From positions 310,001-374,000 of the forward strand of contig NZ_CP030848.1 of NCBI RefSeq assembly GCF_008274825.1: 64,000 nt of DNA, given 5' to 3'. The notes beneath the pieces were generated by a model, which did not search any database, was not told the origin of the DNA, and worked only from the letters and a program-made list of their open reading frames with translations. Shown here one piece after another: positions 50,190 through 57,214 of the stretch. A program made the position numbers and the translations under genes. This DNA is from Sphingobacterium hotanense. Lineage in GTDB: Bacteria; Bacteroidota; Bacteroidia; Sphingobacteriales; Sphingobacteriaceae. The first letter of the stretch is position 1, and each line of letters begins with the position of its first letter.

Positions 50190-51296
50190 ATGACGTTTAA
50201 AAACATGGGAATCATAGCGCCCTTATTGAAAGCTATTCAGAAGACAGGCTATCAGGAACCTACGGAAATTCAGAGTCGGGCAGTTCCGCTGATATTGAAA
50301 GGACACGATATCATTGCCTGCGCCCAGACCGGTACGGGTAAAACGGCCGCATTCGCACTTCCTATATTGCAGCTTTTGCATACTGCAAAAGTCGATCGCA
50401 GCCATCCTAGAGCGCTGGTCATTGTTCCTACGCGCGAACTTGCTGTGCAAGTCTCAGAAAGTCTATCAAGCTTCGCCAATGCCCTGGCGTTGCGACATGT
50501 GGTGCTCTTTGGCGGTGTATCTCAGCAGCAACAGGTTGCCAAGTTGAAAGAAGGAGTCGATCTAATCGTAGCGACTCCTGGAAGACTGCTCGATTTGCAC
50601 GCTCAAGCGCATCTAAATATTTCAAAGGTTGCTTGCTTAGTCTTGGATGAGGCAGATAATATGCTCGATATGGGATTTCTGCATGATATTAAAAAAATAA
50701 TGTCCGCTCTTGCGAAAAAGCGTCAGACGCTATTGTTTTCAGCGACGATGCCCCTTGGAATTCGCAAACTGGCCAAAGAGATGATGCAGCATCCAAAGGA
50801 AGTTGCTATTTCCCCTGTTTCCTCAACTGTACCCACAATAAACCAGTCGGTCTACCTAGTGGATAAAACGGAGAAATTATCGCTACTTAAGCAATTTCTC
50901 TCTGGAAGGGCCGGGCAGCAAACACTTGTGTTTCTGCGTACAAAACATGGTGCTGATCGCTTGTCAAAGAATTTGTCGAAGTACGGCATCACTGCGGCCT
51001 GTATTCACGGAAACAAAACGCAGAGCGCTCGTCAGAAATCGTTAAATTCCTTTAAAGAAGGTAAAGTAGATGTGATGTTGGCGACAGATATAGCAGCAAG
51101 AGGGATCGATATCAAGGAACTTCCCATGGTTATCAATTACGATTTACCGGAAGACGCCGAAACGTACGTGCACCGCATAGGTAGAACAGGCCGAGCGGGA
51201 AAGACAGGAGAGGCGGTCTCTTTTTGTAGCAATGAGGAAAAGTCATTGTTACTGAAGATTCAAAAGCTGATCGGACGTCAACTGACCTGCAAATAA
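50190..51296 (+). CDS. DEAD-box ATP-dependent RNA helicase (RhlE-like, core only)
   Basis: 368 residues, almost exactly the two RecA-like domains with no C-terminal RNA-binding tail. Q motif YQEPTEIQ is at 21-28, motif I AQTGTGKT at 45-52, motif Ia PTRELA at 80-85, motif II DEAD at 153-156, motif III SAT near 184, and motif VI HRIGRTGRAG at about 331. Such helicases remodel structured RNA, ribosome precursors and mRNA, and are often needed at low temperature. It is separated from the desaturase gene by about 217 bases with no gene. The region after it contains the dead GH3 gene. Confidence 0.94.
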   Translation: MTFKNMGIIAPLLKAIQKTGYQEPTEIQSRAVPLILKGHDIIACAQTGTGKTAAFALPILQLLHTAKVDRSHPRALVIVPTRELAVQVSESLSSFANALALRHVVLFGGVSQQQQVAKLKEGVDLIVATPGRLLDLHAQAHLNISKVACLVLDEADNMLDMGFLHDIKKIMSALAKKRQTLLFSATMPLGIRKLAKEMMQHPKEVAISPVSSTVPTINQSVYLVDKTEKLSLLKQFLSGRAGQQTLVFLRTKHGADRLSKNLSKYGITAACIHGNKTQSARQKSLNSFKEGKVDVMLATDIAARGIDIKELPMVINYDLPEDAETYVHRIGRTGRAGKTGEAVSFCSNEEKSLLLKIQKLIGRQLTCK

Positions 51297-51671
51297 AGCA
51301 CTCCAATCTTATTCGCAGACATATTTTGAACGCTTCTCTCTACTGGACCGAAATTCGGTAGGCAGACCGTTCCTTGCCTGTTTAGCTTCAAAAGTAATAT
51401 AGGTGAAAATGATCACATCCGATATCGAAAATAGGCAGTTTCTCTGCGACATGATGAAAATTTTGTTATATTAACAACATAATCGGGAGAGCCACGAGCC
51501 CCCCCTTTTTAAGCAAACCTTTAACCATACGTCTAGGTAAATCTCTGTTATTAATGGGCTTAGCCTCCGTTCTTAGATTGCTGCCATTTTGATAGGTTGC
51601 CTCCTCCCTTTCCTAGGCTTCGGACACCAGCAGTAGTCACCAGAAAAACTAGGCAAGGTCATCAACATCAA
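51297..51671. other. Spacer before the GH3 remnant
   Basis: About 375 bases with no recognisable gene. A protein-like frame begins within the last part (around 51597) and runs into the GH3 remnant, but its first residues do not match the family, so the original gene start is lost or unrecognisable. Confidence 0.35.
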
Positions 51672-52750
51672 ATGACTGACACGGTGTGTTTCGAGTTAGA
51701 AATCAGTCTGGTAGACGATATGCCGACGTTGAGAATTCCCACGGAGCCTGGGATTCATGATGACATCTCGATGAGCGCCGCTTGAAGAAGTGCCAAGGTC
51801 GATCTCCCGAACAACCAAAGTATCTATGCTAGCAGGAGTGTCACAAACCCAAGTTACCTGCCGGTCAATCCTGAGGCTACCGCAATGCCTTCATCGATTC
51901 TCGTCATCTCTAAATTCGATCCGCACCAAAAGTATTTCGCGGGTCGTGCCATAGGAAAGGAGGCTCGAATGCGCGGATTCAACGTGCTTCTAGCGGTTGG
52001 TATCAACTTGATTTGTGACTCGAGTAACGGACACAACTATGAGTAATACTCGGATAATCCAACCCATTCTGGCTTCTTCGGAGGAGCTGCTGTACATAGT
52101 ATTCAGTGCAACAGGTTATCTCATCGCTCAAACGTTACTCATTGAATACAAATGAAACCAACAGACATTGGCTTAACGCGGTGATCGAACCGGAGGCTTA
52201 TATGAAGTCTGACCTTTGGGCTTTGAAGGTCGGGCATGAAGAGTCAAATTCTGGGAGTATTATTGGGGCTTCAATAAAATCGATGAGGAATAAGCCAGTA
52301 GTAATACCTACTTACTCCAGAACTTGCTTCGTGGTCAATTGGTCGCTGGTACTGGAAACATGATAAGAAATTAACATATCCCTTCGGATTCGGTTTGAGT
52401 TACACTAACTTTGCCTTGAGTGAGCTGAAGCTAACGTACGGAAAAGGCTCATTACATCGTTTAACGTTTCCAACACTTAAAATCGTAAAGTAATGCCGCC
52501 TTGCGTTCTGGCTGAGGGTAAATCGCCCAATAAAAGATTAGTAGGATTCCAACGCGTAGAGCTCGAGGCGGGGGCAACAAAACAGAATTTCTTGGAAATT
52601 GACCAAAGGCTGCTAGCAGGTTATCATTGGGATAAATAGGGCCGGCAAATCAACCCTGGAAATATGACTTTCCTCCTTGAGAACGATTCCCAATGCATGT
52701 TCGATCAGGAGTGGATACATTTCCAGAAACTTTTTTTAAATAATCTATAG
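51672..52750 (+). pseudogene. Destroyed GH3-family beta-glucosidase gene
   Basis: Consecutive blocks of a GH3 enzyme are recognisable in three frames and in the correct order. First is LRIPTEPG, then (after a stop at 51783) MPSSILVISKFDPHQKYFAG with AIGKEARMRGFNVLLAVGIN and NGHNYE, then after another stop HSGFFGGAAVHSIQ. After a shift come QQVISSLKRYSLNTNETNRH and WLNAVIEPEAYMKSDLWALK, then ASSNTYLLQNLLRGQL in another frame. The text then jumps directly to LTYPFGFGLSYTNFALSEL, the start of the C-terminal part, and ends with RLVGFQRVELEAGATKQ and LAGYHWDK of the fibronectin-like domain. The nucleophile region (SDW) and most of the second sugar domain are deleted. With at least three stops, two shifts and a large deletion, the gene cannot make an active enzyme. 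Confidence 0.87.
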
Positions 52751-53392
52751 TTCAAAACAGCCTGCTCTAAGCGTTGCACCACAATGGGTTGGCTATTTTT
52801 TTAACGAGTTAATCGTTTCCCGGATAGCAAAGCCCCTCGCACTGGAAACAAACACCCGATGGATAGGGGAGCTTTGAGTCGCTCGTGTGATCGAAATCAA
52901 TGCTTTTCTTCGATCTCTTTTAAAAATTTATGACAAGATGCTTGACGCTTTATCAGGCATGCTCGTCGTGGAAACTTTTTCATCACTTCGGGTGGATATT
53001 TTTTCTTGTAGAAATGGACGATTGCGCTGGCTAGCAACTGGAATCTCGCACCCTCGCCCAAGGTCTATTTGCTATATTGCTCGGATCGATCGGTCGGAGT
53101 TCAACTGTTATTTTGCTGATCTCGATTTTTGGCTTAACCTGTTCAATGTCTACGTACGTATACGCCTGCGGAACATGTTATTATTTTTTCTCCGCAGCTC
53201 TCACAGCAACCCATCTATCCGACTGAGATGCCATTTACTTGCAGTTGATACCGGTGGCCGTATTGCTGTTATGGTAAATGCATATTTGAATACGCTTAGC
53301 TACCAGGTCAGTTCGATAACTCCACAAATCTGATAAGGCCCAGTATAAAAGCGCACTCGTTCTACTATGAAGTATGTGTCAAAACAGTAAAA
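52751..53392. other. Region of decayed sequence after the GH3 remnant
   Basis: A 148-codon plus-strand frame (52887-53333, starting GTG) has an odd composition and no recognisable domain. A minus-strand frame of 56 codons (about 52890-53060) looks more like protein (QLLASAIVHFYKKKYPPEVM, KFLKEIEEKH) but has no start. Both overlap, so at most one can be a relic of a gene. I make no functional call. Confidence 0.3.
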
Positions 53393-54613
53393 TCAAGGGA
53401 TGATATGGCCTATCTCTAGGCGAAACTTCATTTTATGATCTAAAGGTACGCTCGGGCTTTCTAGTTGCTGTTCCAATCGGTCTGGGTATAAGATACCATA
53501 GAGGTGGTCAACTTCATGTTGAAAAATAACAGCAGTAAATCCTTCAATATTTTCTTCAACAACATTGCCCTTCCTATCCACATATTGTAAACGAATGGCA
53601 TAGCTACGTTGAACATCCTCTTTGCGATCCGGAATAGAGAGGCAGCCCTCAGCACCGATGCGGATCAGTTTCGAACGCCAGATAATCTTTGGATTGATAT
53701 AAAACTCAAAAGGTTCATCGGCTTTATCGAAGCGCTGCACCCAAATAACGTTCTTATTGATTCCTACCTGTGGACCAGCGATTCCCACCCCTCTATGCCG
53801 CGCATCTTGCACCGTTTTAAACATTCGTGAAGCCAATTTATCGACGAGAGGATCATCAAATTTCAAATCTTCCGATGGTTTTCTCAATACCGCCAATTCC
53901 TTCTCGTCGGTAATCAGATAAACATGCATGAGCGTAGTATCATCAGCAGAATTGATGATCTTTCGCTCCGTGTCGTTAAAGTTTTTTGCCGCTGATATAT
54001 TCACTTTTCGCTCGTTTTTAGGACCTTTGTATTTTTTCTCGCCAGCTTCGATAGCCAAGGATAAGATATTATCCTTAGGTGGCTGTGGGCATCTATAACC
54101 ATTACTATATGCGCAATACGGATTATAGGCCTTGTTGAAATCTATTGTTAATTCGTTATTTTTAATCTCTTTGATACTTAAATCCAAGTATCGGCCTCCT
54201 TCATAGCTGCTAACACCATTCGTGTTGTCCATAAAAGGAACAAATAAATGATCCCTGTAAGCTTCGGTCTGAAATAATGCAACACTTTGATAGGCAGTTA
54301 GTGTATGTTTTGCTCCTGATAAATCAAAATGTAATAAAGCATAGCGCTTATACTCATTCGATGTGCCGTCATAGGTTGGCATTCGGAATGTCGGTTCATC
54401 GGGCAGTAATTCAACCTTTGCCTTAACAAGGTACTGTTGGTTCGCAGGGAAGTAATCTAAATAAGATAGCTGATCTGCTTTCAACGGTCCATATTCATTT
54501 TTTAAATAGGCTGCGTCTTTTTCCTTCCTATATGTTGCTATTTCTTGCGCATGATTTTGTGCAAAAATTAACGAAGGAACGAAGATGAGTAGCAGGAAAA
54601 CGATTCTTTGCAT
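53393..54613 (-). CDS. Exported fusion of a DUF1684 domain and a peptide deformylase domain
   Basis: 406 residues. A Sec signal peptide (1-18, LIFVPSLIFAQ) precedes a DUF1684 domain (about 22-195) with its signatures YEGGRYLDL (137-145), DFNKAYNPYCAY (158-169) and CPQPP (175-179). A peptide deformylase domain follows (about 225-400). Its metal motifs are complete: motif 1 GVGIAGPQ (275-282, Gly where most have Ala), motif 2 EGCLS (322-326) supplying the Cys ligand, and motif 3 HEVDH (366-370) supplying two His and the catalytic Glu. Deformylases normally act on nascent chains in the cytosol, so a signal peptide and an N-terminal partner domain are unusual. It is divergent from ruvX with 80-92 bases between. 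The substrate is unknown. Confidence 0.88.
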   Translation of the reverse strand: MQRIVFLLLIFVPSLIFAQNHAQEIATYRKEKDAAYLKNEYGPLKADQLSYLDYFPANQQYLVKAKVELLPDEPTFRMPTYDGTSNEYKRYALLHFDLSGAKHTLTAYQSVALFQTEAYRDHLFVPFMDNTNGVSSYEGGRYLDLSIKEIKNNELTIDFNKAYNPYCAYSNGYRCPQPPKDNILSLAIEAGEKKYKGPKNERKVNISAAKNFNDTERKIINSADDTTLMHVYLITDEKELAVLRKPSEDLKFDDPLVDKLASRMFKTVQDARHRGVGIAGPQVGINKNVIWVQRFDKADEPFEFYINPKIIWRSKLIRIGAEGCLSIPDRKEDVQRSYAIRLQYVDRKGNVVEENIEGFTAVIFQHEVDHLYGILYPDRLEQQLESPSVPLDHKMKFRLEIGHIIP

Positions 54614-54633
54614 AGCTTATTATTTATCTCTAT

Positions 54634-54641
54634 CAAAAGTA
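54634..54641 (-). promoter_or_regulatory. -7 promoter element of the deformylase-fusion gene
   Basis: TACTTTTG on the minus strand matches the TAnnTTTG consensus and is 20 nt upstream of the ATG at 54613. Confidence 0.5.
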
Positions 54642-54688
54642 TAGATTTTTAAGAAACATTGAATAAGAATACTTACAAACTTTAATCG

Positions 54689-54696
54689 TACTTTTG
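54689..54696 (+). promoter_or_regulatory. -7 promoter element of ruvX
   Basis: TACTTTTG on the plus strand, identical to the element facing the other way. It is only 9 nt before the preferred ruvX ATG at 54706, so the transcript would be nearly leaderless, or the ATG at 54712 is used. Confidence 0.45.
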
Positions 54697-54705
54697 TGGA
54701 AAACA

Positions 54706-55125
54706 ATGCCTATGAGATTGATGGCTTTCGATTACGGGACGAAACGTATCGGCATCGCCGTTTCTGATTCTTTACAGATTATCGCTACAGCACTCGATAC
54801 AGTGCATCCTGAGGAAATCTGGAACTTCCTTCAAAAATACTTAGCAACCGAACAAGTGGAAACATTTGTAGTAGGAAAACCTATGCGACTAGACGGAAGC
54901 CCTTCGCAATCAGCACAGCATGTCGTTGGATTTATGCGTAAGTTAAAGAAGACATATCCAAGCATTCCCGTGGTGGAAGTCGATGAACGCTTCACCTCGA
55001 AGATTGCCTCTCAAGCCATCGCACAATCGGGACTGAAAAAACAAAAACGCCAGGAGAAAAGTTTTGTCGATACGGTATCTGCCACGCTTATTCTTCAAAC
55101 TTATATGGACAGCAAAGCATTCTAA
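54706..55125 (+). CDS. ruvX: Putative pre-16S rRNA nuclease / RuvX (YqgF family)
   Basis: 139 residues from the ATG at 54706; the conserved domain starts at RLMAFDYGTKRIGIAVSD, so the GTG four codons upstream is not needed. The RNase H-like fold carries its catalytic Asp in FDYG, a Glu/Asp pair in VVEVDERFTS, and a C-terminal Asp in FVDTVSATLILQTY. The family processes the 5' end of pre-16S rRNA (E. coli YqgF) and was earlier called a Holliday junction resolvase. The ybeY gene, another rRNA maturation factor, starts 2 nt after the stop, so the two rRNA-processing genes are cotranscribed. Confidence 0.92.
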   Translation: MPMRLMAFDYGTKRIGIAVSDSLQIIATALDTVHPEEIWNFLQKYLATEQVETFVVGKPMRLDGSPSQSAQHVVGFMRKLKKTYPSIPVVEVDERFTSKIASQAIAQSGLKKQKRQEKSFVDTVSATLILQTYMDSKAF

Positions 55126-55127
55126 CA

Positions 55128-55562
55128 ATGGCTCTTAAGGATATACATTTTTTTGCAGAAGACATCGCTTTCACCTTAAAAGAAAAACAGAAGGTGCGTG
55201 AATGGATCAACCAAACGATCAAAAATGAAGATTTTATTCGCGTAGCAGAACTCAATTTCATTTTCTGTTCTGACGAATATTTATTGACAATCAATAAGCA
55301 ATATTTGGGTCATGATACCTATACCGATATCGTGACCTTCGATTCTTCTGAAGAGGAAGACATCATCGCCGGCGATATCTTTATCTCTATCGATCGTATT
55401 CGTGAAAATGCGGAGAAGTTTGCTGTTCCAGAACGCGACGAACTTCATCGTGTTATTATCCACGGCGTTTTGCACTTGTGTGGATACTACGATAAGAAAA
55501 AAGAAGATAAAGCACTAATGACTCAAAAAGAAGATCAATATCTGAAAGCTAGAGCGTTTTAA
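55128..55562 (+). CDS. ybeY: rRNA maturation endoribonuclease YbeY
   Basis: 144 residues. The UPF0054 core is intact: LNFIFCSDEYLLTINKQYLG, then DTYTDIVTFD and AGDIFISIDR. The zinc motif reads HGVLHLCGYYDKK, so His112 and His116 are present while the usual third His is replaced by Asp122. This HG-x-LHL-x-GY-x-DK form is what I know from Bacteroidota YbeY proteins, so it is a lineage variant and not a defect. The enzyme acts in 16S rRNA 3' maturation and ribosome quality control. Confidence 0.94.
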   Translation: MALKDIHFFAEDIAFTLKEKQKVREWINQTIKNEDFIRVAELNFIFCSDEYLLTINKQYLGHDTYTDIVTFDSSEEEDIIAGDIFISIDRIRENAEKFAVPERDELHRVIIHGVLHLCGYYDKKKEDKALMTQKEDQYLKARAF

Positions 55563-55600
55563 GATTACCTTTTGTCCATAAGTAAGTATGATTAGCATCG

Positions 55601-56044
55601 ATGACCAATATTACCTTTAATAATCAAAGCTTTTTCGAGGGCTTAGAGGATTTAATTGCCCAAGGGAAGTCGGTGCAGTTCCGATTGAAAGGACGTAGCA
55701 TGCAACCTTTTATTCTGGATGGATGTAAAATAACCGTCGCCCCCATAAAATTCGAAGACGCGACGATGGGCGACGTCGTTCTTGCGCGTTGGCGGACGGG
55801 CTGGATATTACATCGTGTTCTATTTAAAAATAAGAATTACCTATTTCTCGTGGGCGATGGAAATCTCGCACAGATTGAAAAAGTGAACAAAGATGATTTA
55901 ATCGCCATTCTGACTTCCTATGAAGGCAAGGATGGCATAGCATATAAAGTCACGACCACATCTAAGTTCCTCTCTGCCGGATGGTTCGCATTTCGCCCGT
56001 TTCGACGCCTTTTTCATAAATTGAAGTCCACAACATTTCGTTGA
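55601..56044 (+). CDS. S24/S26 (LexA/signal peptidase-like) family protein
   Basis: 147 residues, one compact domain. The candidate catalytic Ser33 is in KGRSMQPFILDG, the family's G-x-SM-x-P motif. Then come MGDVVLARW, where a Lys would be expected in LexA-type dyads but Ala-Arg is seen, and ILHRV and VGDGN, as in S26-like members. No DNA-binding domain or clear transmembrane helix is present. The start lies 38 nt after ybeY, perhaps in the same operon. Small S24/S26 proteins of this kind occur in many Bacteroidota with unknown substrates; it could be an active peptidase or a degenerate one. Confidence 0.75.
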   Translation: MTNITFNNQSFFEGLEDLIAQGKSVQFRLKGRSMQPFILDGCKITVAPIKFEDATMGDVVLARWRTGWILHRVLFKNKNYLFLVGDGNLAQIEKVNKDDLIAILTSYEGKDGIAYKVTTTSKFLSAGWFAFRPFRRLFHKLKSTTFR

Positions 56045-56473
56045 TTTCCAGTTCAGTGCGGCGATAGAATTTAAACTTTTGCCCTCCCTCTTGCACTGTC
56101 AATCTAAGTCCTAATACAATTCACTAGCTTAATTGGGAGATCAGCAGTTATAGTTTAAGTTTCAAAATTGATATGTACCCCTTCCATTACTCAATACTTT
56201 GCATCTCAGTTCAGATACTATTTTTTTGATAACCGGTATTAATGCATTATTTCTCCTATAAAATTAGATACCCCTTTTCCCAACTGACTCAATCATAATT
56301 TTGAATAGTAAAAAAAAAGTGTAATATTGCTGTTATAAACCTAAGGTGGCTTTGTGTAAATCAACCAAATCACAAGCTTTTTTCGGAATTGTTAAAAATT
56401 TGCAGATGATCCGTGAAGCGGAGTAAGCTTTGTTAAGCGATGATTAACGTATTGTTATCAAATTAGTTGATAA
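56045..56473. other. AT-rich intergenic region
   Basis: About 430 bases between the S24/S26 gene and the promoter of the sigma locus. No open frame with protein-like composition, no repeat and no terminator with a clear T tail was recognised. Confidence 0.4.
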
Positions 56474-56503
56474 TTGGAAGGCTAAAGTGAATTCCTATTT
56501 TTG
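56474..56503 (+). promoter_or_regulatory. Promoter of the sigma/FecR locus
   Basis: A -33 TTG (56474-56476), a 19-base spacer and a perfect -7 TATTTTTG (56496-56503, consensus TAnnTTTG). Transcription should begin near 56510, just before the short leader ORF. Confidence 0.6.
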
Positions 56504-56514
56504 ACCAAATTGCT

Positions 56515-56622
56515 ATGAAGAAAGATCACACGCTGACTTCTAAAATTATTTTTATTGGCTACGGAACAACAAAATGTTCGTTTGATGCGAGGTTTAATAG
56601 ATGTTTAAGGATTGTTATTTGA
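56515..56622 (+). CDS. Putative 35-residue leader ORF abutting the sigma gene
   Basis: The ATG at 56515 opens 35 codons (MKKDHTLTSKIIFIGYGTTK...). Its TGA (56620-56622) is separated by one base from the sigma ATG at 56624. The ORF starts only 11 bases after the predicted -7 element. The arrangement fits translational coupling of a leader peptide with the sigma factor. The peptide itself shows no known motif, and chance cannot be excluded. Confidence 0.35.
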   Translation: MKKDHTLTSKIIFIGYGTTKCSFDARFNRCLRIVI

Positions 56623-56623
56623 T

Positions 56624-57214
56624 ATGGAGAATCAGAGGATAATTGAGCTATTATATCGGTTAAAGCAGGACGATGTCTCTGCCTTTGAAGAACTGTATAA
56701 TTTCTACAAGCGACCAATGGCCCAAAGGTTACATAAATTATTGAAAAGCGAAATTTTAGCACAGGATGCGCTTCAAGAGTTATTTATCCGGATTTGGACT
56801 TCGAGAGCGAAAATAGATGATCGTCAGCCATTCACTGCCTACTTATATAAAATCGCCCAAAACCTCGTCATCGATTACTATAGAAAGATCGCTAAGGACA
56901 GGAATTTGCAAAATGCAATAATGATTGAAGGTAATCTTCAATCTGAATTTAATCATCTAGAACGTAAGGAACAGAGGCAGCATATTCAACGACTCATCGA
57001 TAAACTTCCCCCCCAACAAAGGCTTGCCTTCACTTTGCATAAAATTGAAGGAAAAAGTCATCAGGAAATATCCGAAATCATGAAGATCGGTCGCTCGACC
57101 GTGAACAAACATATTTTTTATGCCAATCAAACTCTAAGAAAAGAGTTGTCAGAATCGATGTCGCTATATACGATTGTAATAATTTGTAATCTCTTTCAAA
57201 ATATTGCAATCTGA
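56624..57214 (+). CDS. ECF-type RNA polymerase sigma factor
   Basis: 196 residues from the ATG at 56624 (MENQRIIELLYRLKQDD...). An upstream TTG in frame would add four residues and is less likely. Region 2 covers about 15-85, with AQDALQELFIRIWTSRAKI and LYKIAQNLVIDYYRKIAK. Region 4 covers about 120-175, with KLPPQQRLAFTLHKIEGKSH and helix-turn-helix IGRSTVNKHIFYANQTLR. The C-terminus ends in a hydrophobic tail (YTIVIICNLFQNIAI), like the other sigma factor in this window. It is followed by fecR, STN-susC and susD, so it is the output of that surface-signalling cascade. Confidence 0.94.
   Translation: MENQRIIELLYRLKQDDVSAFEELYNFYKRPMAQRLHKLLKSEILAQDALQELFIRIWTSRAKIDDRQPFTAYLYKIAQNLVIDYYRKIAKDRNLQNAIMIEGNLQSEFNHLERKEQRQHIQRLIDKLPPQQRLAFTLHKIEGKSHQEISEIMKIGRSTVNKHIFYANQTLRKELSESMSLYTIVIICNLFQNIAI

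Follow-up and report, generated by a model that had tools for sequence, protein, structure and literature searches.

The 64,000-nucleotide stretch of the Sphingobacterium hotanense genome analysed here, referred to below as the window, carries on its reverse strand a single open reading frame of 406 codons at positions 53393-54613 (-), precisely the coordinates, strand and frame given in a preliminary description of this locus. The gene encodes a fusion between a domain of unassigned role, DUF1684, and a peptide deformylase (PDF), preceded by a predicted export signal. From the N-terminus, the protein consists of a signal peptide (residues 1-18, 54560-54613), with cleavage predicted by a rule-based method before Q19; the DUF1684 domain (residues 50-193, 54035-54466), containing a Cx7C motif formed by C167 and C175; a linker and N-terminal extension (residues 194-240, 53894-54034); and the PDF domain (residues 241-382, 53468-53893), all of them encoded on the (-) strand. 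Both domains are recognised by Pfam over almost the full length of their profiles: DUF1684 as PF07920 (E 1.2e-43; 149.2 bits against a cut-off of 25; profile positions 4-139 of 139) and the PDF as PF01327, Pep_deformylase (E 4.7e-39; 133.9 bits against a cut-off of 22.8; profile positions 10-152 of 156). Pfam gives no third domain in the fusion protein when searched up to E 0.1. Alignments indicate that, within residues 194-240, the extension starting at about F212 is common to stand-alone exported PDFs, and that the linker is kept in a protein without DUF1684 (L063). The three PDF motifs are GVGIAGPQ (motif I, residues 275-282, 53768-53791 (-)), EGCLS (motif II, residues 322-326, 53636-53650 (-)), which includes the metal ligand C324, and HEVDH (motif III, residues 366-370, 53504-53518 (-)), which includes the metal ligands H366 and H370 and the catalytic E367. 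When compared with the NCBI equivalog model for PDFs, TIGR00079, the protein scores 116.6 bits and passes the cut-off of 103.95, and with the subfamily model NF001159 it scores 120.7 bits, below the cut-off of 125. The combination of signal peptide, DUF1684 and deformylase in one protein, as originally described, is therefore found alike by the reading frame, by Pfam and by the signal rule, and full-length orthologues are present in other genomes.

Divergent from the fusion gene lies ruvX (54694-55125 (+); RuvX E 1.4e-38), and the next gene on that side is ybeY (55128-55562 (+); YbeY E 9.5e-31). On the opposite side, the approximately 2.1 kb before the fusion gene (51297-53392) contain no convincing open reading frame, with GTG frames of 85 and 148 codons having no Pfam match, and this gap is bounded at its other end by a helicase-like gene (50190-51296), presumably of the DEAD-box type judging by its motifs. 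A search of 51200-56700 with Rfam returned no match at gathering level. A sequence box, TANNTTTG, found upstream of both the fusion gene and ruvX was discarded as a candidate motif, with six instances in 4.2 kb compared to 4.09 expected.

The N-terminus of the fusion protein, MQRIVFLLLIFVPSLIFAQ, is by inspection a typical Sec signal peptide, and MQRIVFLLLIFVPSLIFA-Q conforms to a home-made signal rule, with a core hydropathy of 3.82. Q19 is invariant in the 26 fused proteins compared. In its strict form, the rule identified signals in 37 of 37 fusions, 41 of 50 stand-alone members of the family and none of 21 canonical PDFs, as well as in 78 of 1740 shuffled N-termini. The fusions and stand-alone members in this count represent 87 of the 110 rows fetched, near copies included, with seven broken, cut or mis-started rows dropped and 16 others left aside, among them second copies of the same species and also L031, a 200-residue frame from Sphingobacterium that has no visible signal by a looser rule and lies outside the strict count. 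The nine stand-alone proteins without a signal by the strict rule are L064-L068, which show one by eye, L079, L100, which looks more like an anchor, L102 and L109. The looser rule, which admitted late Met starts, was abandoned because it flagged 11 of 20 canonical PDFs. A lipoprotein box is fitted by 33 of the 87 rows; none of these, by eye, contains C-x-K-(D/E)2, given as the optimal surface signal of lipoproteins in PMC5080379, the nearest being L092 with KEE starting at +6, and the periplasmic side is consequently favoured for such proteins. By its predicted signal, the window protein appears to be an exported rather than a housekeeping PDF.

An AlphaFold model of the fusion, generated from 61 sequences, has a mean pLDDT of 89.4 and a pTM of 0.77, superseding an earlier model with a pLDDT of 78 that was poor over motif III; in the later model, this motif sits in a helix (residues 359-371). 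When aligned to solved structures with VIA-align, the PDF part of the predicted model matches the Thermotoga PDF 1lme_B over 147 residues (Z 23.0, rmsd 1.3 Å) and 6jf3_B with a Z score of 22.7, and the first part matches the haloarchaeal DUF1684 protein 4dlh_A over 169 residues (Z 21.3, rmsd 2.6 Å).

Comparison with the motifs printed in PMC12690207 indicates that all the residues essential to PDFs are present, as GVGIAGPQ, EGCLS and QHEVDHLYG. The observation that the metal motifs are complete accordingly holds, with the Cys ligand, the two His ligands and the catalytic Glu all in place. In a set of 61 proteins, 60 of which are 36-75% identical to the window protein, PF01327 matches every member, no substitution occurs at Q282, E322, G323, L325, S326, H366, E367, D369 or H370, and C324 is nearly invariant. 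Similarly, the ratio omega, estimated by the Nei-Gojobori method, ranges from 0.010 to 0.091 in the PDF part (10 usable of 13 hand-picked pairs) and from 0.018 to 0.087 in DUF1684 (7 usable of 10 hand-picked pairs), values which are rough, since two pairs are saturated, one is identical and several have dS >1. The sole departure from the motifs in the window protein is the replacement of the second Ala of motif I by Gly, which had been taken as a hint of altered specificity; the substitution is real here, but it is no family trait, occurring in 13 of the 110 fetched rows and also in the ordinary def of another genome (L118, from G036), and so says little about specificity. Another Gly, two residues before EGC, characterises 83 of 95 exported rows, compared with a Phe at that position in 17 of 20 canonical rows; as the solved Acinetobacter class I type b PDF 6jes likewise aligns with a Gly before EGC, this is not used as an argument. 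More radical changes affect the Cys ligand in some relatives. Asp replaces it, giving EGDLS, in nine Weeksellaceae-type proteins (L032, which equals L138, L075, L078 and L139-L144), all of which keep both His ligands and hence represent a natural ligand swap, and L110 reads EGYLS, with Tyr at the ligand position, so the chemistry may be altered or lost in these relatives. Iron PDFs are oxygen-sensitive, a drawback for an enzyme outside the cytosol if it does not use a different metal.

The S. hotanense genome, a single contig of 4,490,254 bases, contains two PDF genes: the fusion, near 0.36 Mb, and a second at 4391832-4392320 (E 1.5e-51), which is an ordinary def of 195 residues with no export signal. 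The fusion is thus not the sole deformylase of its host, whereas being the only one, and essential for translation, would have undercut the preliminary description; a canonical PDF is likewise present in 36 of 36 genomes of the genus (G000-G035). The two types of PDF are phylogenetically distinct. A quick tree of 99 rows splits 78 exported from 21 canonical PDFs with an SH-aLRT of 95. A more careful tree was built from 48 rows, comprising 25 hand-picked from the 78 exported proteins, 18 canonical Bacteroidota proteins and five of E. coli, phage or plasmid origin; in it, the exported proteins make up one clade (99/92) and the canonical Bacteroidota PDFs another (100/99), with several rows on long branches, among the exported ones L107 most of all. 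This separation argues against a recent duplication of the host def as the source of the exported PDF. With a separate def in the genome, a predicted export signal and a position in another clade, the window protein is not the housekeeping Def. L107, the protein at the base of the exported clade, is a lipoprotein-type PDF of odd composition from a Myxococcota MAG, and L132 (from G016) and L133 (from G024), both in members of the genus, are additional, divergent PDFs of the cytosolic type that occupy a long branch inside the canonical group.

Nor is the window protein a lone oddity; it is one member of a clade in which most other lineages are without DUF1684. Among the best 80 of 320 relatives from a search of genome contigs, the PDF part alone, from about residue 204, was found in Flavobacterium, Emticicia, Chryseobacterium, Lewinella, Bacteroidales, Alistipes, Prevotellaceae and one Myxococcota MAG, mostly as proteins of around 190-230 residues with their own signal or lipoprotein sequence. 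In the same set, most Sphingobacterium loci, together with Rhinopithecimicrobium, carry the fusion of DUF1684 and PDF, which is confined to this genus among the genomes and loci examined. A contig from a MAG titled Thermoanaerobacteraceae (L037) has a Sphingobacterium-type fusion, 66% identical to the window protein, and is probably mis-binned. Plasmid and phage matches amounted to 906 and 157 records, respectively, all below 60% identity, and the 40 and 15 of these listed were an ordinary PDF, something else or an unannotated feature.

Within the genus, counted as Sphingobacterium including Rhinopithecimicrobium, an exported PDF was detected in 82 of 93 genomes (E up to 1e-45) and not found in the other 11. 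DUF1684 occurs in 66 of the 93, each time with the exported PDF: the two domains share a single frame of 399-461 aa in 62 genomes, and in four (G005, G473, G035 and G453) the frame is broken or cut. A further 16 genomes have the exported PDF without DUF1684, 11 have neither, and in the 93 genomes DUF1684 never occurs apart from the exported PDF; in the window's own genome, DUF1684 is present as a single copy, inside the fusion gene. Further proteins with both domains, a search for which had been suggested at the outset, are therefore common in the genus, and the recurrence of one frame of this size in 62 of 93 genomes, the low omega and the AlphaFold matches to solved folds together indicate that the fusion is not a chance event. 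In a sample of 395 Bacteroidota genomes, an exported PDF was found in at least 10, at 206 bits or more with the next match at 132 bits; the count of 10 is a lower bound, as mostly seven candidates were scored per genome and the weak rows were truncated. Seven of these ten come from one family, with proteins resembling L075 and L078 of Chryseobacterium, two from the same family as Sphingobacterium and one from another; the eight from outside that family are not fused, given frames of 209-230 aa. The lack of a detected gene in 11 of 93 genomes of the genus and 385 of the 395 sampled suggests the exported PDF meets no general need.

The distribution of DUF1684 within the genus reflects loss as well as presence. 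The Sphingobacterium proteins L063 and L064-L068, which are without DUF1684, nest within the fusion clade in the quick tree, and L063 retains the signal peptide and linker of its fused sister L041, pointing to losses of the domain in these lineages. The exported PDF is the constant part of the protein, and DUF1684 an optional, dispensable module. Where the module is present, the two cysteines of its Cx7C motif, C167 and C175, are invariant (26 of 26 fused proteins). The same motif is found in the haloarchaeal DUF1684 protein HVO_1043, which is placed in a thiol-relay group in PMC9426492. The domain may thus be a helper, perhaps through binding or through redox protection of the thiolate metal site.

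Different partners have been joined to the exported PDF elsewhere. In Bacteroidales MAGs, two proteins of 764 (L072:4938-7229) and 762 residues (L076:4944-7229) have a lipoprotein signal and a PDF followed by what Pfam identifies as Peptidase_M14, and a third (L073:4920-7232) is assigned to the same type by its length and start, which are like those of L072. This M14 fusion was encountered at three MAG loci in the set of the 80 best relatives (of 320); two of these loci are near copies, and the Pfam assignment was made for two. The L072 sequence contains HAGE, NRD and DVH, which we take to be zinc carboxypeptidase motifs. Of all the observations, the M14 fusion gives the strongest clue that peptide breakdown may be the function. 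At L072, a gene with thioredoxin-like domains is situated directly upstream of the PDF-M14 gene. In another, single MAG, a 591-residue frame (L104:3747-5519) combines an acyltransferase-3 membrane protein with an exported-type PDF, a joint frame that may have arisen through a lost stop codon.

The position of the fusion gene beside ruvX is conserved in the genus, with the exported-PDF gene upstream of and opposite to ruvX in 27 of 28 genomes, and on a different contig in the 28th. The preliminary description had noted that this is where a normal def might be expected, and canonical def does follow ruvX on its own strand, at a distance of no more than 1 kb, in 21 of 23 genomes of the same class outside the genus (G036-G058); the ruvX-def pair is seen in 1 of 36 genomes within it (G000-G035). 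The exported gene did not simply replace the old def, as it stands on the other side of ruvX and belongs to another clade. Outside the genus, gene calls were obtained around 43 of 45 loci (L069-L113, with L090 and L103 yielding none) and the neighbours were mixed, ten of them being classified by Pfam as a glycosidase, thioredoxin-like, M64 peptidase, rhomboid, radical SAM, DUF2264, Lnt-like, GDPD and others. Such varied company makes no partner pathway apparent, and operon partners were rejected as a guide to function.

The window protein has the same domain, predicted fold, three motifs and metal ligands as class I Def (PF01327/TIGR00079), from which it differs in its export signal, separate clade, N-terminal extension and fusion to DUF1684. 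Accessory PDFs, the subject of a 2025 survey (PMC12690207), are likewise extra copies beside a housekeeping PDF. No exported PDF is described in the sections of that survey consulted; its main text contains neither 'secreted' nor any term starting with 'bacteroid', and it uses 'signal peptide' once, in connection with substrates, and 'periplasm' a single time, in connection with a vector. The Def-Fmt fusion of Exiguobacterium, covered in PMC12690207, also joins a PDF to another domain, although there two enzymes of the formylation cycle are linked and DUF1684 is not involved. Similarly, the solved haloarchaeal DUF1684 proteins 2lnu, 2lok, 4dlh and 4fj4 have a domain and fold in common with the window protein, but they are without the PDF part, as are the stand-alone DUF1684 frames examined in other Bacteroidota. 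A literature search that covered few subscription papers found no description of an exported, secreted, periplasmic or extracellular deformylase; an earlier description may exist. Judged from its sequence, the window protein seems to be a member of the PDF family of a new, exported kind, distinct from housekeeping Def.

Deformylation is conventionally described as taking place in the cytosol during translation, and the preliminary description considered that there was no obvious formyl-methionine substrate elsewhere. This conflicts with work on the clients of the signal recognition particle (SRP), which, according to PMC5454389, blocks the deformylation of nascent chains bearing SRP signals; it is proposed there that N-out inner-membrane proteins and released signal peptides retain the formyl group, and any role of the group retained on membrane or periplasmic proteins is stated not to be known. 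On balance, the window protein is probably an exported enzyme, active outside the cytoplasm, that deformylates N-formyl peptides or N-termini, most plausibly for peptide salvage. We infer that Sec would export the fusion, after which the signal peptide would be removed, and that the PDF domain, by means of a Cys-His-His metal site, would cleave the formyl group hydrolytically from these substrates in the periplasm. Formylated fragments would be supplied by signal peptides, N-out membrane proteins and lysed neighbours and, because a formyl group blocks aminopeptidases, deformylation is proposed to open these fragments to degradation and uptake. DUF1684 would act as an add-on module with which the process could dispense. 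The existence of an exported clade most of whose members carry signals suggests that some bacteria trim formyl caps outside the cytoplasm too.

Salvage is favoured over a compulsory maturation step by the patchy distribution of the gene and by the M14 fusion. Under the latter hypothesis, formyl would be removed after translocation from the cell's own N-out inner-membrane proteins, shielded by SRP from the cytosolic PDF. Formylated N-termini of this kind have been reported or proposed (PMC5454389), the motifs are intact and the lipoprotein forms would be membrane-sited, although perhaps in the outer membrane instead; yet such substrates are general in bacteria and the gene is not, being detected in at least 10 of 395 Bacteroidota and missing from 11 of 93 genomes of the genus, and the M14 fusion points to peptides, making this explanation unlikely. 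It is also quite unlikely that the PDF fold has been reused on a formylated or acylated envelope component, antibiotic or signal in place of formyl-Met peptides. The separate clade would fit such a change, as would the invariant R294 and D296, at which the genome's own Def has Ala and Pro in an ungapped comparison by eye, the prevalent Gly before EGC where canonical proteins have Phe, and the Cys-to-Asp ligand change of the Weeksellaceae-type proteins; nevertheless, canonical PDF residues are kept, and the solved Acinetobacter enzyme shares the Gly. Formyltransferases of family PF00551 number 2-4 in each genome that has the gene and 2-3 in those lacking it, so similar that a formylated sugar is not indicated, and sugar deformylation was rejected after no link emerged between these counts and the gene across the 93 genomes of the genus.

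Two further explanations are given less weight still. The exported PDF might be a decoy or reserve against PDF inhibitors (actinonin), binding the drug in the periplasm or replacing def if made unexported, and a Met does occur at a possible internal start, residue 229, in 17 of 26 fused proteins. A reserve needs to be in the cytosol, however, and nine of the 26 have Leu at 229; moreover, around the position presumed to align with an Arg-to-Tyr change, the window protein has Lys or Arg by eye. Accessory PDFs less susceptible to actinonin are described in PMC12690207, but the Arg-to-Tyr change reported there is absent from the window protein, and the idea is very improbable. Least credible is that the protein is a relic, or an inactive binding protein in which the fold is kept without catalysis: Asp or Tyr stands at the Cys ligand in some relatives, and the genus exhibits losses and broken reading frames (G005, G473 and L042), but the catalytic residues are invariant over long divergence and omega is low. 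A wider version of the favoured explanation, exported deformylation for salvage, can be put forward more tentatively and is open to considerable doubt. In it, some Bacteroidota would maintain a dedicated deformylation step outside the cytoplasm, performed by an exported PDF clade joined to DUF1684 or M14 depending on lineage, in which the Cys-to-Asp substitution of the Weeksellaceae-type members is an adaptation to an oxidising compartment and the substrates are both the cell's own exported N-termini and foreign formyl peptides.

That the window protein passes TIGR00079 means that annotation-based counts of accessory PDFs may include exported proteins that would have no part in translation, and annotators should be warned that assignments made with this model may take in such proteins as well. 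With a clade of exported deformylases, one knockout would suffice to test what becomes of the retained formyl group. If the proposal is true, dedicated extracytoplasmic deformylation would also lower the formyl-peptide signal that is sensed by hosts.
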